A stretch of 64,000 nt of DNA, taken from assembly GCA_025917655.1 (NCBI GenBank), contig CP084608.1:1922001-1986000 (forward strand), read 5' to 3'. The notes beneath the pieces are model-generated. The model did not search any database. It was not told the origin of the DNA and saw only the letters and a program-made list of their open reading frames with translations. Numbering within the stretch: position 1 is the first letter of the stretch; every line of letters starts with the position of its first letter. The DNA comes from Chlorella sorokiniana. Taxonomy: Eukaryota; Chlorophyta; Trebouxiophyceae; Chlorellales; Chlorellaceae. Below are positions 41,952-53,306 of this stretch, one piece after another. A program made the position numbers and the translations under genes.

Positions 41952-42444
41952 GGTTCGGCTGTGACTGTGACAGCACGCGGATTTATGCATGCACATGCCC
42001 TTGCTTGCTTTAGCAGTGGTGATTACAAGTGCCAACTAAGAATGGCAGTCTCGTTCTAGAAAGCCCTGATGGCCAAACAATAAAATGCATGCAAATAATA
42101 GTCAAACAAGCGAGCCAGTGTCTGAGTGCTGCTGTTGCTGCTGCTTGGTCAAGACAGGAGGTGCACAGGCGCTCCAGCCAGCGGCGGCGAAAGAAGACAG
42201 GGCAGGCGAAAGTACAAAGGTTGTATCAAAGGTGTCGCGCAACAAAGGAATGGCAGGGGTGCAAGGAACATTGCTTCCTTCCCCACTTCCCCACAAAATT
42301 ACACAGAGGGCCGCAGGCATGCGCGGCAATTTCTCAGGGGAAGGAGGCTGGTGGGAGCGAAGGCCGAGGCCTTCGCTAAAGGCTAAGCCCGCTGCGGCGC
42401 GGACTTGCAGCCACCGTAGGTGGAGCCGCCCACGCAGCCAGGGC
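41952..42444. other. Convergent 3' spacer
   Basis: About 490 bases between two converging genes. Apart from the minus-strand TGTAA at 42299-42303 nothing was recognised. Confidence 0.5.
42299..42303 (-). terminator. TGTAA poly(A) signal of the oxidase-CFAS fusion gene
   Basis: TTACA on the plus strand, about 142 bases downstream of the fusion gene's stop on the minus strand. Confidence 0.5.
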
Positions 42445-45400
42445 TTAGTGCGCGTGCGCTTTGCTGGCTGGCGGCGCCAGCAGCGCGACAGCGCGGCGCC
42501 CGTTTGTGACCGACATGTAAGCCATGCCCGCCACCGCCAGCACGTAGTATGTGCGCGTGGCAAAGGCGGCGGGCTGGAAGAGGACGAGCAGGCCCAGCAG
42601 GGCATGAGGCACCAGCCTACGGCGAGGAGGGGTGTGGGTGGGCATGAGGGGTGGATGGGGAAGGCGGCCGACAGCTGGGCAGCTTCACCGCAATCATGCA
42701 AACCCTTGGGCCCCAATGGAAACGCACGGGAGGTCGCACATGCTGCTCATCCAGCATGCCCAAGCCCTCACCGGAAGAATACGAAGGTGATGCGGTCGGC
42801 GGCCGCCAGCACAGTGGCCACAGTGTTCAGGCGAGAGCCGCCACCGCCGCCGCTCTGCGCCAGAGCGAGGAGCTTGCCGGCCAGGCGGAACACCGAGTTG
42901 ATTTCCGACAGCAGGCAGATGGCCATGAAGGCGGTGTGCTGCACCGATGGGAGGAGGGGCAAAGCCGAGATGCTCAGAAGCACACGCCGGCGAGAGGCAG
43001 GCTGGCCACTGGGGCTTGGCGACGGGCGCTCGGACCGCCGACAGATGCCTGCACCCATTTGCAGCCTGGCCCCCACCCCCCCAACACACACACACACACA
43101 CACACACACCGCACCTCCGACTTGTATGCGGCGGCGGAGAAGAGGCAGAGGAGCAGGGTGAAGTGGGCCATGTGGCGGTAGGAGGCGCGGAACAGCCGTT
43201 GCGTCACCTCAGCATACAGCATGAACCCGAAGAAGCCGGCTGCGGTGCAGCAGAGGAAGCGCAGGCATAAAGCCACAGGGTGCACAAGCTCAGCCAAGGC
43301 AAGGGCTCAGTATCGAGGCCCTGACAGCCTGTCGCCACAAGCAAGGGGGCCAGCCATCGTCCAAGGCAATGGATGCAGCAGGCAGGCGGGCAGCTGCGGC
43401 CCAAGCCCACCTGATGCCACGATGAGCGCCTGCGGCAGGTCGGCGCACCACATGCCCGCGGCCGGCAGCTGCGCCGACAGCAGCAGGGCGCGGGGGCAGG
43501 CCAACAGGAAGACGCCCACCAGAAGGGCTGCGGGCAGGGGAGGAAGGGGGGGGAGGGGGGCACAGCGCAGCTTGTGTTTAGTTTAGACAAACACAACACA
43601 GAAGAGGTGGACAGGTGCATTGGAGCACATTCAGACCAGCAGAGCAGAGTCGAGTCGACCCCCTGCCTGCTCTGCCTTCCAGCCCCACCCCGCCAAGCAA
43701 GCCATTGGCAACGGCGAAACAAGCCATCGCCGTTGCTAACTGCGCCCTCACATACACACCCATACCAGCCGGCCCCCACCCACCCGTGACTGCCGAGTAG
43801 GCGAGGTGTGTGAGGTCCACGCGCCACAGCGCCGCTCGCTCCGGGGGCAGCTCGCGGTAGAAGGGCAGCGCCAGCTGGCTCGCGGCGCCCGCCAGCCAGT
43901 GCACGGCGGCGGAGGCCGCTGTGGCCAGCGGCAGCAGCCACAGCAGGCGGCCCGTGGAGACGGCGATGCCGGCCAGGAAGCAGTAGAGGCAGAGCAGGGC
44001 CTGCATGGCTGGGTCGCCGCCGGCAGCGGCAGGCGCCGCCTTGAGGCTGCCGTCGGCGCCGCGGATGCCCTTGCTGATCTCGACTGCAGGCGGGCAGGGA
44101 GCGCGGTTGTAGGTTTGCAGGATAAATAACCACAACTTGCTTCTGTGCACGGCATGCATCCGTGGCAGGCCGTCTTGAGGGCTGGCTGTCCACCCCTGCC
44201 GGGCTGCTGCCTGCAGAGGGGCGCCGCCACCCGGCCAGCCACTCACTGGAGCGCTGCATGTCCTCGGGAGTGAGGGTGCTGGGCTCGTCCTGACCCACGT
44301 CACCTGGAAGGTGTGGATGTAGCTGCGGGCGGGGGCGGCAGCGGGGCCGCAAGTGAAGCAGGGGCATCGAGGGAGGAGATGAACAGGCACACGCTGCCGC
44401 AGCTCGCCCGCAGGCGTGGGAGCGCTGCGCGCGCCTGCCGCTGCGCCGGTTCGGCCCCACGCACCGCGCATCGAAGGCCGCCTCGCAGTAGGCCACCCTA
44501 AACCCTAAACCCCTAAACCCTAGACCCTTCCACGCACCGCGCATCGAAGGCCGCCTCGCAGTAGGCGAAGTAGAACTGGTACTTGCGCCAGAAGCGCTCC
44601 GAGTAGCCTAGGGCCAGCACCTGCAAAAGGGAGGGGATCGGGGGCAGTGAGCTGGTGGGTGGGTGGGAGGCCTGGGGGCGTTGCGAGCACCGCCCGCCTC
44701 ATCCAGAATAATCCAAACAAGCTATCCAGCAGCAGCAGCTGCACACAGTCCTGCTCGAGGTGACAGCCGCACAGCCGGTCCGCACGCCGCCCTGCCTGCA
44801 GGCCTGTCGCCCGCAACGCACCTCCTCCTTGCGCGCCTCCCAGGCGTCGCGCCACGCCCGCAGCGTGACGGCGTAGTCGGGCCCGATGTCCTGGCAGCCG
44901 TGCACGCGCATGCCGGTGCCGCGTGCGGAGTCAACCATCACCCCCATGCAGGGCAGGTGCCCGCCTGCGCGAAAGCCGAGACGAGTGGTGTCAGAAGCGT
45001 GGTGTGGTGGGGGTCGGAAGCCCAGCAGGCGTGCTTCCATGTATAAGCGCGGCCCCCAGGCAGGGCGGCCCCCAGAGCCCAGGTCCTCGTGCAGTAAAAC
45101 GACGGTTCACTTGAAACCCAGGGCTATGGGCCCAGGCAGCGCGGCGCCGCCCAGGCCCAACCCACACACCCCAAGGTGCCCCCGGCAGCGCGCACCCACC
45201 GGGGAAGATGTGTTCGCGGATGAAGTCGGAGGACTTGCAGTACGCCTCGTACCGCTCATCAGGCTCAGCAATCACCTGCACAGTTGGTTTGCGAGGCAGC
45301 AGGAACGATCCCGATGTACCGAGGGAGGAAGGGCAATCAAGCGCAGGGCACGCCTCGGTGGCAGGGCCGGTGCAGCAAGGCAAGCCGGTGCGGGGGTAGG

Positions 45401-48400
45401 AAGCGCCGCAGCAGCCGCTGCCGCGGGCCGCTCTGTCACCGCACCTGCAGCACGCACTTTCCTCCCGGCTTCAGCATGGCTCCCAGGGTGCGGAAGTAGG
45501 CCTGCATGTGCTCGTGGCCCACGGCCTCAATCATCTCACACGACACCACCTGCGTGGGGGCGGTGAACAGGGTGGTTGAAACCGTGAACAGGCCACAAAA
45601 CCGGTCGTAAACAAACCTCTGGGCTTGCAGTCACTTGATGTCCCTGTTCCCCTGTCCGCTTTGCAGCCTGCCCACCTTGTCGTACGTGCCCGCCCCGGGG
45701 CACTCGCGGTAGTCACAGAAGAGCAGGGTGACGCGGTCGGCCAGCCCCGCCGCCTTGACCCGCGCCGTCGCCTCCGCCAGCTGCTCCTTGCTGACGGTGA
45801 TGCCGGTGACGCGGCAGCCGGTGCGCTGCGCGGCGCGCATGGCAAAGGAGCCCCAGCCGCAGCCCACCTCCAGCACGTGGTCGCCGCCTGCACGGCACGG
45901 CGCACGCAGTGTGGGTGTGGCTCAGCTGCTTGGGGCAGGTGGTGGTCGAGGGGCTGCCTGGGGCAGCTAAGTACGCTGGGTAGCCACGGGCAGCACGCAT
46001 GTGCCACCCTTCCCGGCTTTCAGCGGAAGCCACAGCAGCAGCTGGCTGCCCACCCTGGATCTCCGCCTTGTCGATCAGCGCATCGATCTTGTTCAGCTGG
46101 CTCTGGTGCAGGTCGCAGCCTGCGGCACGCTTGGGACAGGGCACGTGCTGTGGATGCAGCGGCGGCACTCTGCAAGGCTTCGCGCTGCTGAGAGCAGCAG
46201 TGTGCCATGTGTGTGTGGCGCAACATGAAGGGAGCCAGCAGCGCCGCCTGTCATACATATTAATTTGAGCAGCCTGCAACCCACCAGGGGTCCAGATGCC
46301 GCAGGAGTAGGTCATGGACTGGTCCAGAAACAGCTTGTACATGTCGTTGCCTGCGGTACAACAAGGCGGTACAAGGCGGCACTCGAGACGAACTGGCAGG
46401 CAAGGAGAAGGAAGGCGGAGCAGCATGCGCGCCAAGCCAGCGGCGTGCGCCAGCTGACGCTCCCGGCCGGTGACACAGCCATCGGCACCGCTTTTCCGAG
46501 GCGGCAAACAAGTCTCCGTGCTGCCCCCCCCTTTCCCTCCCTGCAGGTACCCCACCCGCGTCATAATGCTCCTCAATGTTCTTGCGGGAGCCCTCCAGGG
46601 TGTTGGACCGCGCCGCGTGCGCCGCCGCCAGCAGCCGGTCGCCCAGCCAGTTGAAGGCGCCCAGCAGGCCGCGGCTCTCCTGCGCAAGGGGCGGGCCCAA
46701 CGGGACAGAGGTTGAGCATGGCGAGCTGTTCGCCCATGCCCTGCAAGCTGTGTGGCCTCTAAAGTCGCCTCCCAAGCACCATATTCATCGTGAACCTGTG
46801 CGTCAACAGTCCTATTGCATATTGGCACCACGCCCCAGTGGCACCCGCATATACACCCACCTGCTGTGCAACCCCTCGCCCCCCCACCCCCACCCCCACC
46901 ACCCGCCAGCGGGCACACAGCGCACCTCGATGTTGACTGCGTTTGCGGTGGCCACAGCCAGCAGCGCGCCCAGGTCCTGCACAGCGTAATCGCCGTCCAT
47001 GTAGCTCTCCCCCATGCCTGATAGCAAGGGCGGGGCAGCGGCCGGGGGGGATGGGCAGGAAGGGGGCCATGGGCAGGCGGGGTAGGCTGGGGTGCATACA
47101 CACCGGGTGCTGACTCACATGCATGCACCCTGCCGCCGACAACAACCCAGCCTTCTGGGGCTGCATGCTTGCCAGCTGTTCTCTGTTTTTTGAGAGGAAG
47201 GCCTGGTTCCTGGGAACCCTCCCCCGCCCCCAGCCCCTGCACCCTCCTCCAAGGCCCCCTCCCGCCGTCAACACAAGACACATTCAGCGCACCTGTGTCG
47301 TGGCGGGTGATGACCTTGCGGAAGAAGGCGGTGTCAAAGATGCGCAGGGTGGCAGACAGGCGCGGCCGCCCCCGCCACTCCTCGCCTGCGTGGGTGGCAG
47401 ATGGGAGCAAGGCCGGATGCAACCGAGGCTGTCAACACACAAGCCAAGCAGGCCTTTAGCCTGCCTGCCATCCCCTGCACAGCACTGAATAGTGCAGGGA
47501 CAGCCAACGCCCCCGCCGCTGGGCCCTCCCTGGGGGTTGGACACGGAGTGTCCCCCTTTGGGGCTCACCTTTGGGCACGGGTGGGGCGGCCTTGGCAGGG
47601 TCCCCATACACCAGCTCCTCGCCGCTGGGCAGCACCAGGCGGAGGTGGCCGGTGCGGATGGCGGCGCGCGCAAACTTGTCGAACAGCGCGATGGCGGCGC
47701 GGTCCAGCAGCGGGATCTTGGGGGACACTGAGCGCGGCACCCAGGGAGTGGTGCCGCCTGCGCAGGGCAGGGAAGAAGCAGAAGCTCAACCAAACAACAA
47801 GGGAAGACAAGCAGGCCGCATGCACATGACGACTCCAGGCCAGTGCCGCGGCAGCCTCGGCGGCAGGCGGTGCGCGGGCGTGAGCTGGGCGGGTGCTTGG
47901 ACCGTGCCGGTTGTGGTGCCGGCGCCGGCACCACACGCCAAGCACACGCCTGCCCCCGCCGCCAGCCAGCGGAAGCGCACCCATGGCTGCCACAGCGTCC
48001 ACGGCGCTCTTGATGCCGTCCTCGTGGAAGCCGTAGCCCGCCCACGCTCCCGCCAGGAACACGCCGCCCTCGCCCTGCCCCCAGGCAGCAGCACAGGCAG
48101 CTTTGTCGCCAGGTGTTGCGGCCGCTGAAGGAAAGTGCCGCGTGCTTTGGGATGCTGGCAGGCAAGCAGGCGAGCAGGGAACTGGTAGGAGAAGACACAG
48201 AAGGCAGTTGCCCTCCGTCCAGCCCACCTGGACCGAGGGCAGGCGCCGCTGCGCCGCGTCGGAGGCAAATGAGAAGACGGGGTGGGCCAGCGACAGGCGG
48301 CGGAAGACCTTGTCTGCCGCGGGGGCTGGATGGGGTTGAGTGTGACAAACAGGTTGGGCGCGCCCGCGGGCAGCGGCTGCAGCCGGTTGGCCCAGTACGA

Positions 48401-50780
48401 AACACACACAGCAGCCCTGCAGCCAGGGTGTGTTGGTGGGGGCGAGGTAGGGTCATCAAGAAGTGTGCCACTGGCTGCAGCGTTCTGCCGCTGTCTTATC
48501 ACAAGTCCATCCACTTTGCAGCAGAAAGCAAACGCAATACACGCGGCCCTCAGGGCCTCTTCTGCAGGCCCCCCCTCCCCCAAAAAAGCAAAAACAACAT
48601 TATACTGCAGCTCGCCTGTCGCCGTCGGCGCCGCTGCGCCCCAGGAAGTTCCAGGAGGCCCAGGTCTTGCGGCAGCGCGGCATCAGAGCCTCGTCGGTGT
48701 GCAGCCACACGTCGTTGTCGTTGTAGGGGATTGCGCGCAGCACGTCCAACAGCGCCTGTGGAAAGAAGGCAGGCAGGGCGGTGGGCGCAGGCGGAGGCGG
48801 CTGGCAAACGCCGCCTGGGTGCTGCACAACCCACTCAGAACAGCCAGCTCAGCCGTGAACAGCCGCGGCATGCACCAGTCTACGGCTGTACAAACTTCAG
48901 GTAAGCTGCATGTGGGAAGCCCACCTGGGGCCCCTCCTCCCCCAGAATCTTCAGGCTGATGTCGGAGTGGGTGGCGAGCACCACGGCGTCATACTCTGCG
49001 GTACCGTCGGCCGCAGCCAGCTGCACGGGACCCTGTGCTCCCAGGCTCTTCACGGAAGTCACGGGGTGCCGGTGCGCACGTCTGGCAGCACTGCAAACGG
49101 CGGCGGCGCATGCGGCCAAGTGGGAGGGCGCAGCCAGGCGATCAAGCCTCCAGAAGACGGCAGGGAAACGGCTGTCGGCTGGGAACTTGCATCGGCTGCC
49201 ACTCTACACCTTGTCAGACAACAACCAGGCACGCGCGGCCACCACGCTTGAAAGGGCACCAAGCCATGTGTCTGCCCTGTCAGGCCCTCCACAGCCGCCC
49301 ACGCACCCCCAGGATCTTGTCCACGTACTGCTTCCCGCGCCCCGACACCACGCGCCAGCAGGGGCGCCCGAAGATGTCCAGCAGGTGGTGGTTGGCCCAG
49401 AAGCGAACCAGGGTGGTCACCGGGAACTCAAGCACCTGAGGCTCAGGAGGGGGAGAGGCAGCAGCGTGGGCAGGGCCTGCCTCGCGCTTCAACCTGCTGA
49501 TTGACACACTTGCGGTTGCGTTTCCGGCATGGAGGTCATTTTGTGAGGAGGTATGCGTGAGCAGGCAAAGCGGCCCAGCAGCGCCCCACCTGCGCGTTGG
49601 GCACGCTCCACACGGCCGCGCACATGGGGGCCACGTAGAGGTCGCGGAAGGCGGCGCCGTACCGCCGCAATGACAGGTACTGCCCCAGCGTCATGCGCGC
49701 AAACTGCAGACGAGTGGGGCGGACGCGGCCACGGCGGGGGTGGGCAGTGCTGCTCGCAGAGTCCAGACTGATGCTGCACAGCTTGCAGGAAGCCTGTGGT
49801 AGGGGCAGCATCCCCGAGGGCGTCCTGCACCCTCCCTGTGCTCCAGCCCACCTGAGCCTCGTGCTCGGGCCGCAGCACCTCTGGCGCCTGCCGCCCGAAG
49901 CGCACCACGTCCCGAATCATGCCCAGGAAGGCGGGCGAGGCCAGGTTGCCGCGCTGCGCAAATATCGTGTCCAGACTGTGGCTGCCCCACTCCAGCTTGC
50001 CGCCGTCCACTGCAGTACAGCGGGGCAGCGGGTAAGCGGGGGCCGGCACGCGGAGTTTTGCAAAGCGGGACGCTTCGTCACGCAGCAGGAGCGGGACAGG
50101 CAGGCGCCTCCCAAGCGAGGGTGGGCATGCAGCAGCATGGACCAATGTGCTTCTGCGCCCCAGGCGCAGCCCAGCGGCGCAGCCCACGTCTGCCGCCACG
50201 CTCTCACCCGACAGCGCAAAGGACATGTCGCTGGGCTGCGTTTCCACCCCCAGCTCCTCAAACAGCCCCACCAGGTGCGGGTAGGTGGTCAGGTTGTACA
50301 CCTGTGGTCATTGGGGACAAAGAAAAGGGAGCATGATCAGCAGCATGATCAATGCTGCCAGGGCGGCACAGGCACCCTGCGGTGGCAGGGCGGCAGCAGC
50401 GCCCGCAAGATACCTGGAAGCCCAGGTCGACGGGGTAGCCGGATGATGTGTCGGTCAGCGTGTGGCCGCCGCAGGTCTCCTCGCTCTCGTACAGCGTGAC
50501 GCGGGCGCCATTCCTGCAAGCGGCAGTGCGGCGCGGCGGGAAGCGTTTGCGCAAGGCTCGGCGCCGACCTGGGCGGGCTCAGCAGTGGGAGCCTAGGGAC
50601 CAGGCGAGGACGGTGTTCCTGCGCCCCTGCCGGCTTTATTGCCATGCAGGTCAAAGAGCGCTTCGCAGAATGTGGCAACACGTGGTCTGCAAGGCTCCTG
50701 CGCGCCCACCTGTGCAGCAAGTAAGCGGCCGAGAGGCCGCTAATGCCGCTGCCCACTACAGCGACTCTACGGCCTTCCAT
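42445..50780 (-). CDS. FAD amine oxidase - cyclopropane fatty acid synthase - TLC-like membrane domain fusion
   Basis: One 27-exon gene of about 1155 residues. Residues 1 to about 470 form an FAD amine oxidoreductase: RRVAVVGSGISGLSAAYLLH is the dinucleotide fold, and GYGFHEDGIKSA is the C-terminal flavin motif. A cyclopropane fatty acid synthase follows (YMDGDYAVQDLGALL, MYKLFLDQSMTYSCGIW, HVLEVGCGWGSFAMRAAQR for SAM, VSCEMIEAVGHEHMQAYFRT), which methylenates acyl-chain double bonds. This pair occurs in land-plant CFAS. Unusually, about 300 further residues form a multi-helix membrane domain with a TLC-like block (CLLSEINSVFRLAGKLL). Exons 5' to 3': 50780-50710, 50513-50414, 50301-50208, 50009-49852, 49703-49590, 49435-49307, 49090-48925, 48755-48616, 48416-48228, 48074-47981, 47757-47569, 47385-47293, 47017-46926, 46679-46556, 46350-46285, 46119-46054, 45887-45676, 45549-45445, 45275-45200, 44964-44822, 44620-44538, 44322-44247, 44083-43784, 43527-43411, 43239-43115, 42938-42772, 42616-42445. 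The exon 8 donor is GC. Confidence 0.87.
43082..43110. repeat. CA dinucleotide microsatellite
   Basis: About 14 CA units in the intron between exons 25 and 26 of the fusion gene, next to that intron's donor side on the minus strand. Confidence 0.9.
44458..44566. repeat. Interstitial telomeric tract with 36-bp flanking duplication
   Basis: Positions 44496-44524 hold about four CCCTAAA-type telomeric units, one with an extra C. The tract is bounded by two identical 36-base direct copies, 44458-44493 and 44531-44566. The duplicated segment covers the end of coding exon 21 of the fusion gene and its splice donor, so the intron now carries a second copy of the exon end and donor. Confidence 0.9.
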
Positions 50781-51037: not shown

Positions 51038-53306
51038 ATGGCATCGCTGCAGCCTCATGGCCGCGCTCTGCGGGCCGGAAGGGCTGGGGACCTTGCACTG
51101 TTTCGCTCCCAGAGGCGAAGGCCCCAAGCTGTGGCGAAGGGGACTTTTAGGGAGGCAAGCACGCCCCAGCAGGCGCCGCCACGCACGGTTGTAGAAACAG
51201 GGCTCCTTGGGGAGCGCCGCCAGGCGGTCGTCCTTGTCACTGCGGGGGCGGGTGAAGTAAGCGTGGCGCAAGCTGACGCGTCAGCTGCAGCCTCATTGGA
51301 TGCTTCAGCGCCCACAAGCAGCAGCAGCAGCCACCACAGTGGCGGGCCATTAGCTGCTCTACGTGCATTCTTCCTGCCCACAGGTGCTCCGTCGCTCGCG
51401 ACGTTTCCTTCATTTTGCTGCCACCCTATGTCGGCATCCGCAATGTAGTGCATCGATTGCGTGGCGCCTAGCCTCTCCAGCTAAGAATGCACTGCATGTG
51501 TGCTCTCCTGTGCAGGGTGGCCCCACAGCGTCACCCCGATTACTTGAACTACCAGCTGGCCACCATCCCCGCCCACGTCACGGGGTGGATGAGCCACTCA
51601 TTGGCCACCTCCTCCATGATTGCCGCCCTGGGCATCGACGCAGGCCCTGCCCAGGCCGCCGCCGTCAGCGCCGCCGTCAAGTGGATCACAAAGGACGGGC
51701 TGGGCGCGGCGGGGCGGCTGATTGTGGGCGGGCGCCTGGCAGCAGGTGAGACGCCTTGCGTGGGGTGTCAGTGACTGCGCTGGACTGCTGCGAGGACCGC
51801 TTTTATCGACAACTCCTCGCAACCATGCGTTCCTGCGTCTCGCCTCGGCTGCCAGTGTTTGACGAGGACCCCAAGCGCTGGCGCATGGCGGCGGAGGGCG
51901 TGAGCACTGTGGGCCTGGCGCTGGAGATCGCCACACAGGTCTACCCAGGTGGGCGGGGTGCGCGCCGGCGGGGCAGATGCCAGTGGAGGCTGACCATGCG
52001 CCAGCAGGCTCGCATGCGCTGTGCTGGGGGACGGCGCCGAGCTGGCAGGCTGCTGAGCGCTGCCAGGCGTGGCCGATGCCTGATGCGCCCCCTGCAGGCA
52101 GCTTTGTGGTCCTGGCGGGGCTGGGCACGCTGTGCAAGTCGATGGCCAAGGGCATGGGCACGCCCTGCTTCCGCATCATCCAGACACATTTCTCGGGTGC
52201 GTGGGCGAGTGGGAGGCGCTTGCTGTGCTGGCTGCATGCTTTGGCTGCATGCCGTGCCTGACATGCTTTGGTGCAGAGGTGCCTGTTCCGGACTAACCTT
52301 TACCGCCAGCCCTGTGCTCTTCTTGACGCAGCAACCAACAACGTTGGGGATGTGGCTGCCAAGGAGGAGGTGTGGGAGGTGGTGGCTCAGGTCAGCCCGC
52401 AGCGTTGTTTGACCAGGAGGCACTGCCCTTATCGCGGCATCCTGCCGCTGGCATGCAGTGCTGCTAAAGAAACGGTTCAAACATCCGCGCATTCCCTGCC
52501 TGCAGCTTGCGGGCCTGGCAGCCAGCGTTGCGGCGCTGCAAGCTCTAGAAGCGGCAGGCTCGCCTGACGCTGTAGTTCTCGTGTGGGCCGCTGTGCACGC
52601 TGTGCATGTCTACATGCGCTACGTTGCGCTGAGCGCGTTGCGCTTCCCCTACCCAAATCAGGCACGGCAGCGGCGGGGTGGAACCTGACATTCATGCGTC
52701 CCCCTTGTGCCTGTGATCTTGCTCAGCTGGTTGTGTGCTCACGGCCCGTCTTCTGCTTCCGGCTGCTTGCAGAAACGGGCAGCGGTAATGGTCAGCAGCC
52801 ACGTCAGCAGCGGACGGGTGCCGTCGGTGGAGGAGGGCAACCTTGGGGAGCGAGTGCTGCTGACGCCGACCCAGTGCAGCCCTCGAGTCCACTACGGCTG
52901 CACCTTGGAACAGGCCCTGGGCGGCAGCGGCGGCGCCCAGGCGGAGCAGCTGCGGCAGCTGGTGCGCCTGTACAGCAGTGAGCGGTACATGCTCACGTGG
53001 CACAGCGGCGCGGCATGGGTGCTGGTGCTGGAGGGGGCGCAGTGCACGGATCTGCTGCGGGCCATGTGGCAGGCGGCCTGGCTGGATCGGCAGCACCAGT
53101 GGCTGCAGCAAACAAGCGGCTCGGATATGCACAGCAGCAACGGCGGCAGCGGAGGCGGCGGCGCTTCCAATGCAGGCCTGTTGGCAGACAGCCTTGCAGC
53201 GCTGCAGGACCATTGGCCCGATTTCGTGCGGCAGGCGGAGCAGCAGGGCTGGCAGCTTCAGAAGGCTGTGCTGCCTAGCGGCACAGCTCGGCTGCGGCTA
53301 GAGTGA
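51038..53306 (+). CDS. Root UVB sensitive (RUS) / DUF647 family protein
   Basis: RUS proteins are membrane-associated factors; land-plant members act in UV-B sensing, vitamin B6 balance and auxin transport. Conserved parts are GWPHSVTPDYLNYQLATIPA, AAVKWITKDGLGAAGRLIVG, FDEDPKRWRMAAEGVSTVGL and ATNNVGDVAAKEEVWEVVAQ, followed by a hydrophobic helix pair and a soluble C-terminal domain with a Gly/Ser linker. The first exon encodes an Arg/Ala/Ser-rich leader that could target a plastid. Exons: 51038-51383, 51516-51745, 51856-51948, 52098-52196, 52332-52390, 52506-52661, 52773-53306, all in phase. Intron 6 begins with GC. One frame break near 51536 disappears with one added C. Which RUS subgroup it belongs to cannot be decided here. 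Confidence 0.88.

Follow-up and report, generated by a model that had tools for sequence, protein, structure and literature searches.

A locus of the green alga Chlorella sorokiniana raises the question of whether one gene joins a flavin oxidase, a lipid methylase and a membrane domain in a single polypeptide, and of which lipid chemistry such a protein would carry out. It lies at 42445–50780, on the minus strand, of a 64,000-nucleotide stretch of DNA that was analysed as a whole (hereafter the window). A preliminary description, made from the letters alone, had read it as a 27-exon fusion of an amine oxidase, a cyclopropane synthase and a C-terminal membrane domain. An independent minus-strand model, in which splice sites were joined from start to stop, arrived at the same coordinates and the same 27 exons, running from an ATG at 50780 to a TAA at 42445; the gene is real and its coordinates are right. 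Pfam domains follow one another in the order oxidase, methylase and TLC-like tail, so that the three-part order proposed earlier holds, and we regard the three-part architecture as very probably correct.

GT opens 25 of the 26 introns in the model and GC the remaining one, at the donor of exon 8, and AG closes all of them; the donor between exons 6 and 7 is ambiguous. Intron lengths ranged from 103 to 275 nt in the first version of the model. The start originally assigned to exon 10 was dropped, an acceptor at 48075/48074 fitting without a frame change, and with this preferred acceptor intron 9 measures 153 nt rather than 103 nt. The stretch from 50921 to 50780 has no further in-frame Met, so that, barring an upstream exon that the model lacks, there is no sign of a long transit peptide. 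A divergent neighbour on the plus strand (51472–51774) encodes a UVB_sens_prot domain (PF04884, E 3.4e-11). A promoter region shared between this neighbour and a light-stress lipid gene, which is how the fusion gene is interpreted below, is possible.

Intron 21, as modelled, holds an insert. An exact 37-bp direct repeat (44457–44493 and 44530–44566) flanks 36 bp of CCCTAAA telomere-type repeat, and each copy of the 37 bp includes the last part of exon 21 together with the donor, which places the insert within the intron. The feature as a whole (44457–44566) looks as though telomere repeat had been taken up at a staggered break; on that reading the insertion would be tolerated because one copy of the exon 21 donor still serves. 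CCCTAAA repeats are also present at both ends of contig C1 and at the start of contig C2, among the contig ends listed.

Exons 11–21 and 23–27 are open and in phase. The conserved reading shifts frame once each in exons 7, 9 and 22, at or beside a homopolymer run: C runs at 49063–49066 in exon 7 and 48321–48325 in exon 9, and a GGG run at 44294–44296 in exon 22. These three breaks, the ambiguous donor and the telomere-type insert at the donor of exon 21 could together be taken as the marks of a decaying pseudogene, its frame breaks being real. Breaks of the same kind are found elsewhere in the assembly, however. In an HSP70 stretch on contig C3 (L076 1–801) the reading shifts frame twice, at G runs, as judged by eye against the HSP70 consensus; this control, one stretch among 57 HSP70 matches, was chosen for abutting matches in different frames and is not a random sample. 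Likewise, a TLC gene on contig C11 (L019, near 1825) has its conserved motif interrupted by a frame change at a C run. The two cases indicate that such breaks are not special to the fusion gene, and an indel error in the assembly is the likeliest cause of all of them, that in exon 22 included. The long open portions of the gene and the conservation of its active-site residues, except for one His, also oppose decay, as does its standing in the genome: in the C. sorokiniana assembly searched (38,804,885 bases in 15 contigs), where the chlorophyll a/b-binding family gave 41 matches, all 11 CFAS matches fall within the fusion gene, which is the sole CFAS gene found there. A pseudogene is thus a very improbable explanation.

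Exon 22 (44247–44322, minus strand) forms the junction between the methylase and the linker, and the single shift of frame in it, at the GGG run, bears directly on whether the locus is one unit or two. Its start is in the CFAS frame (YIHTFQVTW), whereas its end (DEPSTLTPEDMQRS) is in a different one, which alone meets exon 23 in phase. The earlier statement that the exons continue in splice phase into the membrane part therefore stands for junctions 23/24, 24/25, 25/26 and 26/27, but not for the raw letters through exon 22. Two routes would provide the frame without any error in the assembly, namely retention of the following intron, which is open, or a donor after YIHTFQ spliced to a weak acceptor before 44078. 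A stop between the synthase and the membrane part, which the preliminary description had named as evidence against the fusion, was searched for and none was found; with the intron before exon 23 retained, the CFAS frame is open from 44322 into exon 23.

The raw break would equally suit two adjoining genes, an oxidase-methylase and a separate TLC gene beginning at ATG 44259 or in exon 23, and ATG codons in the TLC frame do occur within the DEPSTLTPEDMQRS and GDPAMQALL stretches. The gap from the methylase end (44304) to exon 23 (44083) is nevertheless of about 220 nt, within the intron size range of the gene, and the methylase frame lacks a stop before exon 23; the like breaks elsewhere in the assembly further weaken the significance of the one in exon 22. 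The distribution of TGTAA, the green-algal poly(A) motif, points in the same direction. On the coding strand it occurs 16 times in the window, which at average density predicts about two inside the gene, and none is present in 42445–50780, hence none between the methylase and TLC parts. Past the TLC stop, one lies at 42299–42303 and a second at 42023–42027 (minus strand). The absence of the motif inside the gene is mild evidence for a single unit, and the division into two genes is improbable, although less so than decay.

The membrane part comprises exons 23–27 (42445–44083, minus strand). The preliminary description had claimed about 300 residues of membrane helices with a TLC-like block and had suggested a profile search of them. 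The TLC-like reading stands, on scores close to the cutoff. The last 293 residues contain roughly 6–8 membrane segments by hydropathy, the maxima for the exon 1–6 and exon 11–22 pieces being 1.2 and 1.27, respectively. Searched with Pfam, exons 23–27 as a whole match TLC (PF03798) at 3.1e-5 and 24.5 bits, the Pfam cutoff of 24.6 being 0.1 bit above this score, and exons 24–27 match at 3.1e-6 and 27.7 bits, over the cutoff; exon 23 alone gave no Pfam match. A genome-wide search with PF03798 returned six rows, four of them over the cutoff, and the fusion gene is missing from these because its match is split by introns. Elsewhere in the genome no close copy of the tail was found, the next match having an E value of 0.13, and among solved structures the best sequence match to it is at chance level (E 0.53).

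The tail shares its TLC match in exons 24–27 with a family that includes TRAM, ceramide synthase, CLN8 and TLCD proteins, and differs from these in being fused to a methylase. Ceramide synthases carry paired histidines together with an acidic motif. Hand-cut segments of the tail and of three TLC genes of the genome gave a weak alignment; in it the tail retains one histidine of the pair, and the acidic motif, present in a ceramide-synthase-like copy among the three, was not seen in the tail. With a single paired His apparently retained, a role in anchoring or lipid handling would fit better than acyl transfer; it is plausible that the tail anchors the enzyme in a membrane, and its sequence weakly suggests a TLCD-like role.

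At the other end of the protein, exons 1–10 (47981–50780, minus strand) encode a putative flavin amine-oxidase, UfaD-like part, assigned by Pfam on exons 1–6 and by splice phases and sequence contexts. The Pfam scan, which covered exons 1–6 of this part, gave NAD_binding_8 (2.1e-17) and Amino_oxidase (3.6e-17). Against solved structures the same piece finds amine oxidases, LkcE being first (1.1e-12).

The methylase occupies exons 11–22, as far as YIHTFQ (44304–47757, minus strand), and is open and in phase. Pfam, a phylogenetic tree and active-site residues identify it as a CMAS/CFAS-type, UfaM-like enzyme. The CMAS domain is matched at 4.5e-79 over residues 156–423 of the exon 11–22 piece, and the solved structures found first are cyclopropane-fatty-acyl-phospholipid synthases (6bqc, 1.9e-44, which we take to be the E. 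coli structure). The tree contains 53 rows, the characterised UfaM sequences lying outside it. Within it the alga groups with all 16 oxidase-linked rows plus a single row from a spirochaete, in an unstarred set of 18 rows (94/83). This group is nested in a starred set of 22 rows (99/88) that adds four long-branch rows. The pairing of the alga with the bacterial row L029 is weak (88/65), and the tree program warns that long branches meet.

Residues were counted in 41 of the 53 tree rows, 12 second copies being left out. Of the bicarbonate-site and active-site residues of CFAS (Cys, Glu, His, Ile and Tyr, the His being numbered 266), all but the His are retained in the alga, which has Gln in its place, so that the classical set is incomplete. 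Gln stands at the His266-equivalent position in the alga and in all 15 readable linked rows, a feature seen here and not taken from the literature; the other 23 readable rows have His in 17, Gln in four (one being the spirochaete row) and other residues in two. At the Cys position the linked rows have Ser in 11 of 16, Ala in one and Cys in four, and the other rows have Cys in 22 of 24. That the alga should have Cys where linked rows mostly have Ser argues against a simple split of the methylase groups. The name cyclopropane synthase is probably too specific and needs correcting, because the methylase groups with oxidase-linked rows rather than with the other CFAS-type rows and shares the Gln-for-His exchange of the former.

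The gene partners of the bacterial relatives add a further line of evidence. Scanning prokaryote genomes with the methylase recovered 37 relatives, some on short contigs, and an oxidase ORF was present in the fetched DNA of 13 of them at E 1.1e-27 or better; a 14th match (L049, 8.6e-4) was left out of the count. All six ORFs given to Pfam, whether situated between the oxidase and the methylase or fused to the latter, proved to be DUF1365, separate in L022, L024, L033 and L035 and fused in L023 and L029. The two DUF1365–CFAS-type methylase fusions (L023, 7188–9200; L029, 2393–3994) join parts of the pathway in another way. Among 304 plasmid records with a methylase match, three regions were read, and each has an FAD oxidoreductase gene upstream. 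DUF1365 lies between in two (Azospirillum and Rhodococcus), the Mesorhizobium region having an unlisted gap at that place. A ChrR family anti-sigma-E gene is near in the Mesorhizobium region, that of Azospirillum has genes for a sigma factor and a cupin, and the Rhodococcus region has none of these. An oxidase and a DUF1365 protein as partners of a methylase correspond to the ufaD-ufaO-ufaM set for furan fatty acids (PMC7380195).

A search for TLC relatives beside the bacterial methylases found none, phmmer giving no match with an E value of 1 or lower in 1932 ORFs of at least 80 residues from the 37 loci; this is a point against the interpretation given below. Membrane ORFs near two of the operons were considered as TLC relatives and rejected, Pfam assigning them to DUF1295 (L022 and L038) and to fatty acid desaturase (L022). 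Viral contigs, scanned with either the methylase or the TLC piece, yielded no confirmed relative. Three of the oxidase–DUF1365–methylase loci have a second, distant CFAS-like methylase downstream (L022, 10008–11312; L035, 10064–11185; L038, 10293–11333), which adjoins the DUF1295 gene in L022 and L038 and may be a later step of the pathway.

In Rhodobacter sphaeroides UfaM, UfaD and UfaO convert cis-vaccenate through a methyl-alkene and a methyl-diene to a furan acid, on phospholipid chains, and UfaO carries DUF1365 (PMC7380195). The alga has in common with the ufaD/ufaO/ufaM genes of this species and of Rhodopseudomonas palustris (PMC7380195) the pairing of a desaturase with a methylase, and its genome also has a DUF1365 gene; UfaD-like, UfaM-like and UfaO-like genes are thus all present. 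The algal DUF1365 gene, on contig C6, scores 53.2 bits, its match over the cutoff spanning positions 77–127 of 235 (one exon). Unlike the bacterial genes, the alga appears to combine two of the enzymes in a single eukaryotic polypeptide that lacks DUF1365 and ends in a TLC tail. Arabidopsis AT3G23510 (AtUFAMD1), reported to be 34.26% identical to UfaM and 38.50% to UfaD, likewise holds oxidase and methylase in one protein, but it is located on lipid droplets and the words TLC and transmembrane are absent from the main text of its report (PMC10940516). In Chlamydomonas, likewise a green alga, CFA1 and CFA2 are annotated as CFAS, and their induction by singlet oxygen depends on SAK1; a TRAM-superfamily gene appears in the same table of up-regulated genes, listed apart from CFA1 and CFA2 (PMC4067076). 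This gene is a possible counterpart of the TLC part of the alga. The authors of a 2021 review state that they are testing whether such lipid modification occurs in Chlamydomonas (PMC8491031). A literature search found no oxidase-CFAS pair in Chlamydomonas and, judged from its listings, no methylase joined to TLC, CLN8 or LAG1; the consulted passages of PMC4067076 and PMC8491031 describe no CFAS-TLC fusion in green algae.

In plants, CFAS enzymes fused to an oxidase yield true cyclopropane acids, and plant enzymes with Gln at the His266-equivalent remain active. The oxidase-linked grouping consequently does not settle the product of the algal enzyme, and this could instead be a cyclopropane acid. 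The alga would then have a true plant-type cyclopropane fatty acid synthase with a membrane tail, the oxidase being accessory and no furan acids being made, a reading in keeping with the CMAS domain and with the four active-site residues retained. It sits less well with a grouping and gene partners that are those of the furan pathway, with the Gln at the His266-equivalent and with the DUF1365 gene in the genome, and we hold it to be a minority possibility.

In our reading, the gene encodes a fusion of UfaD and UfaM that ends in a TLC tail; the enzyme pair has known relatives, on which a membrane tail of this sort is not known to have been described. On balance we lean, by a modest degree, towards one transcription unit and one polypeptide, composed of a UfaD-like desaturase/oxidase, a UfaM/plant-CFAS-type methylase and a TLCD-like tail, with a predicted role in furan-type lipids; the biochemical role itself, as predicted from sequence, is moderately likely. 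In such a protein the N-terminal part would act as a flavin desaturase/oxidase and the middle part as a SAM-dependent acyl methylase, with the TLC part fixing both in the ER or another membrane beside the phospholipid substrate. The methylase would act on an acyl double bond, adding methylene or methyl there, after which the oxidase would desaturate the methylated chain, and the separate UfaO-like DUF1365 protein encoded on contig C6 could close the furan ring. The expected setting would be the defence against singlet oxygen and high light. The gene structure, the domains, the way the methylase groups, the DUF1365 gene and the lack of a separating stop are observed, whereas the product, the membrane, the order of steps, the regulation and an assembly error behind the exon 22 frame change are what we infer here.

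The presence of the UfaD/UfaM/UfaO gene set, seen together with the singlet-oxygen induction in Chlamydomonas, suggests a membrane-fixed desaturase-methylase in light-stress lipid chemistry. A bolder version, which we offer as speculation and think rather unlikely in full, has a green-algal lineage with a membrane-embedded single-chain desaturase-methylase that makes furan fatty acids protective against singlet oxygen; its TLC domain would be a working lipid-presenting module, more than an anchor, and the singlet-oxygen-induced Chlamydomonas TRAM-superfamily gene would be its unfused partner.

The locus touches on two open questions, the making of furan or cyclopropane acyl chains in eukaryotes and the effect of singlet-oxygen stress on algal lipids. 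As seemingly the only gene of its kind in the genome, joining both enzymes to a membrane module, it provides one clean target for these. The fusion also hints at the functions open to TLC domains placed next to lipid enzymes.
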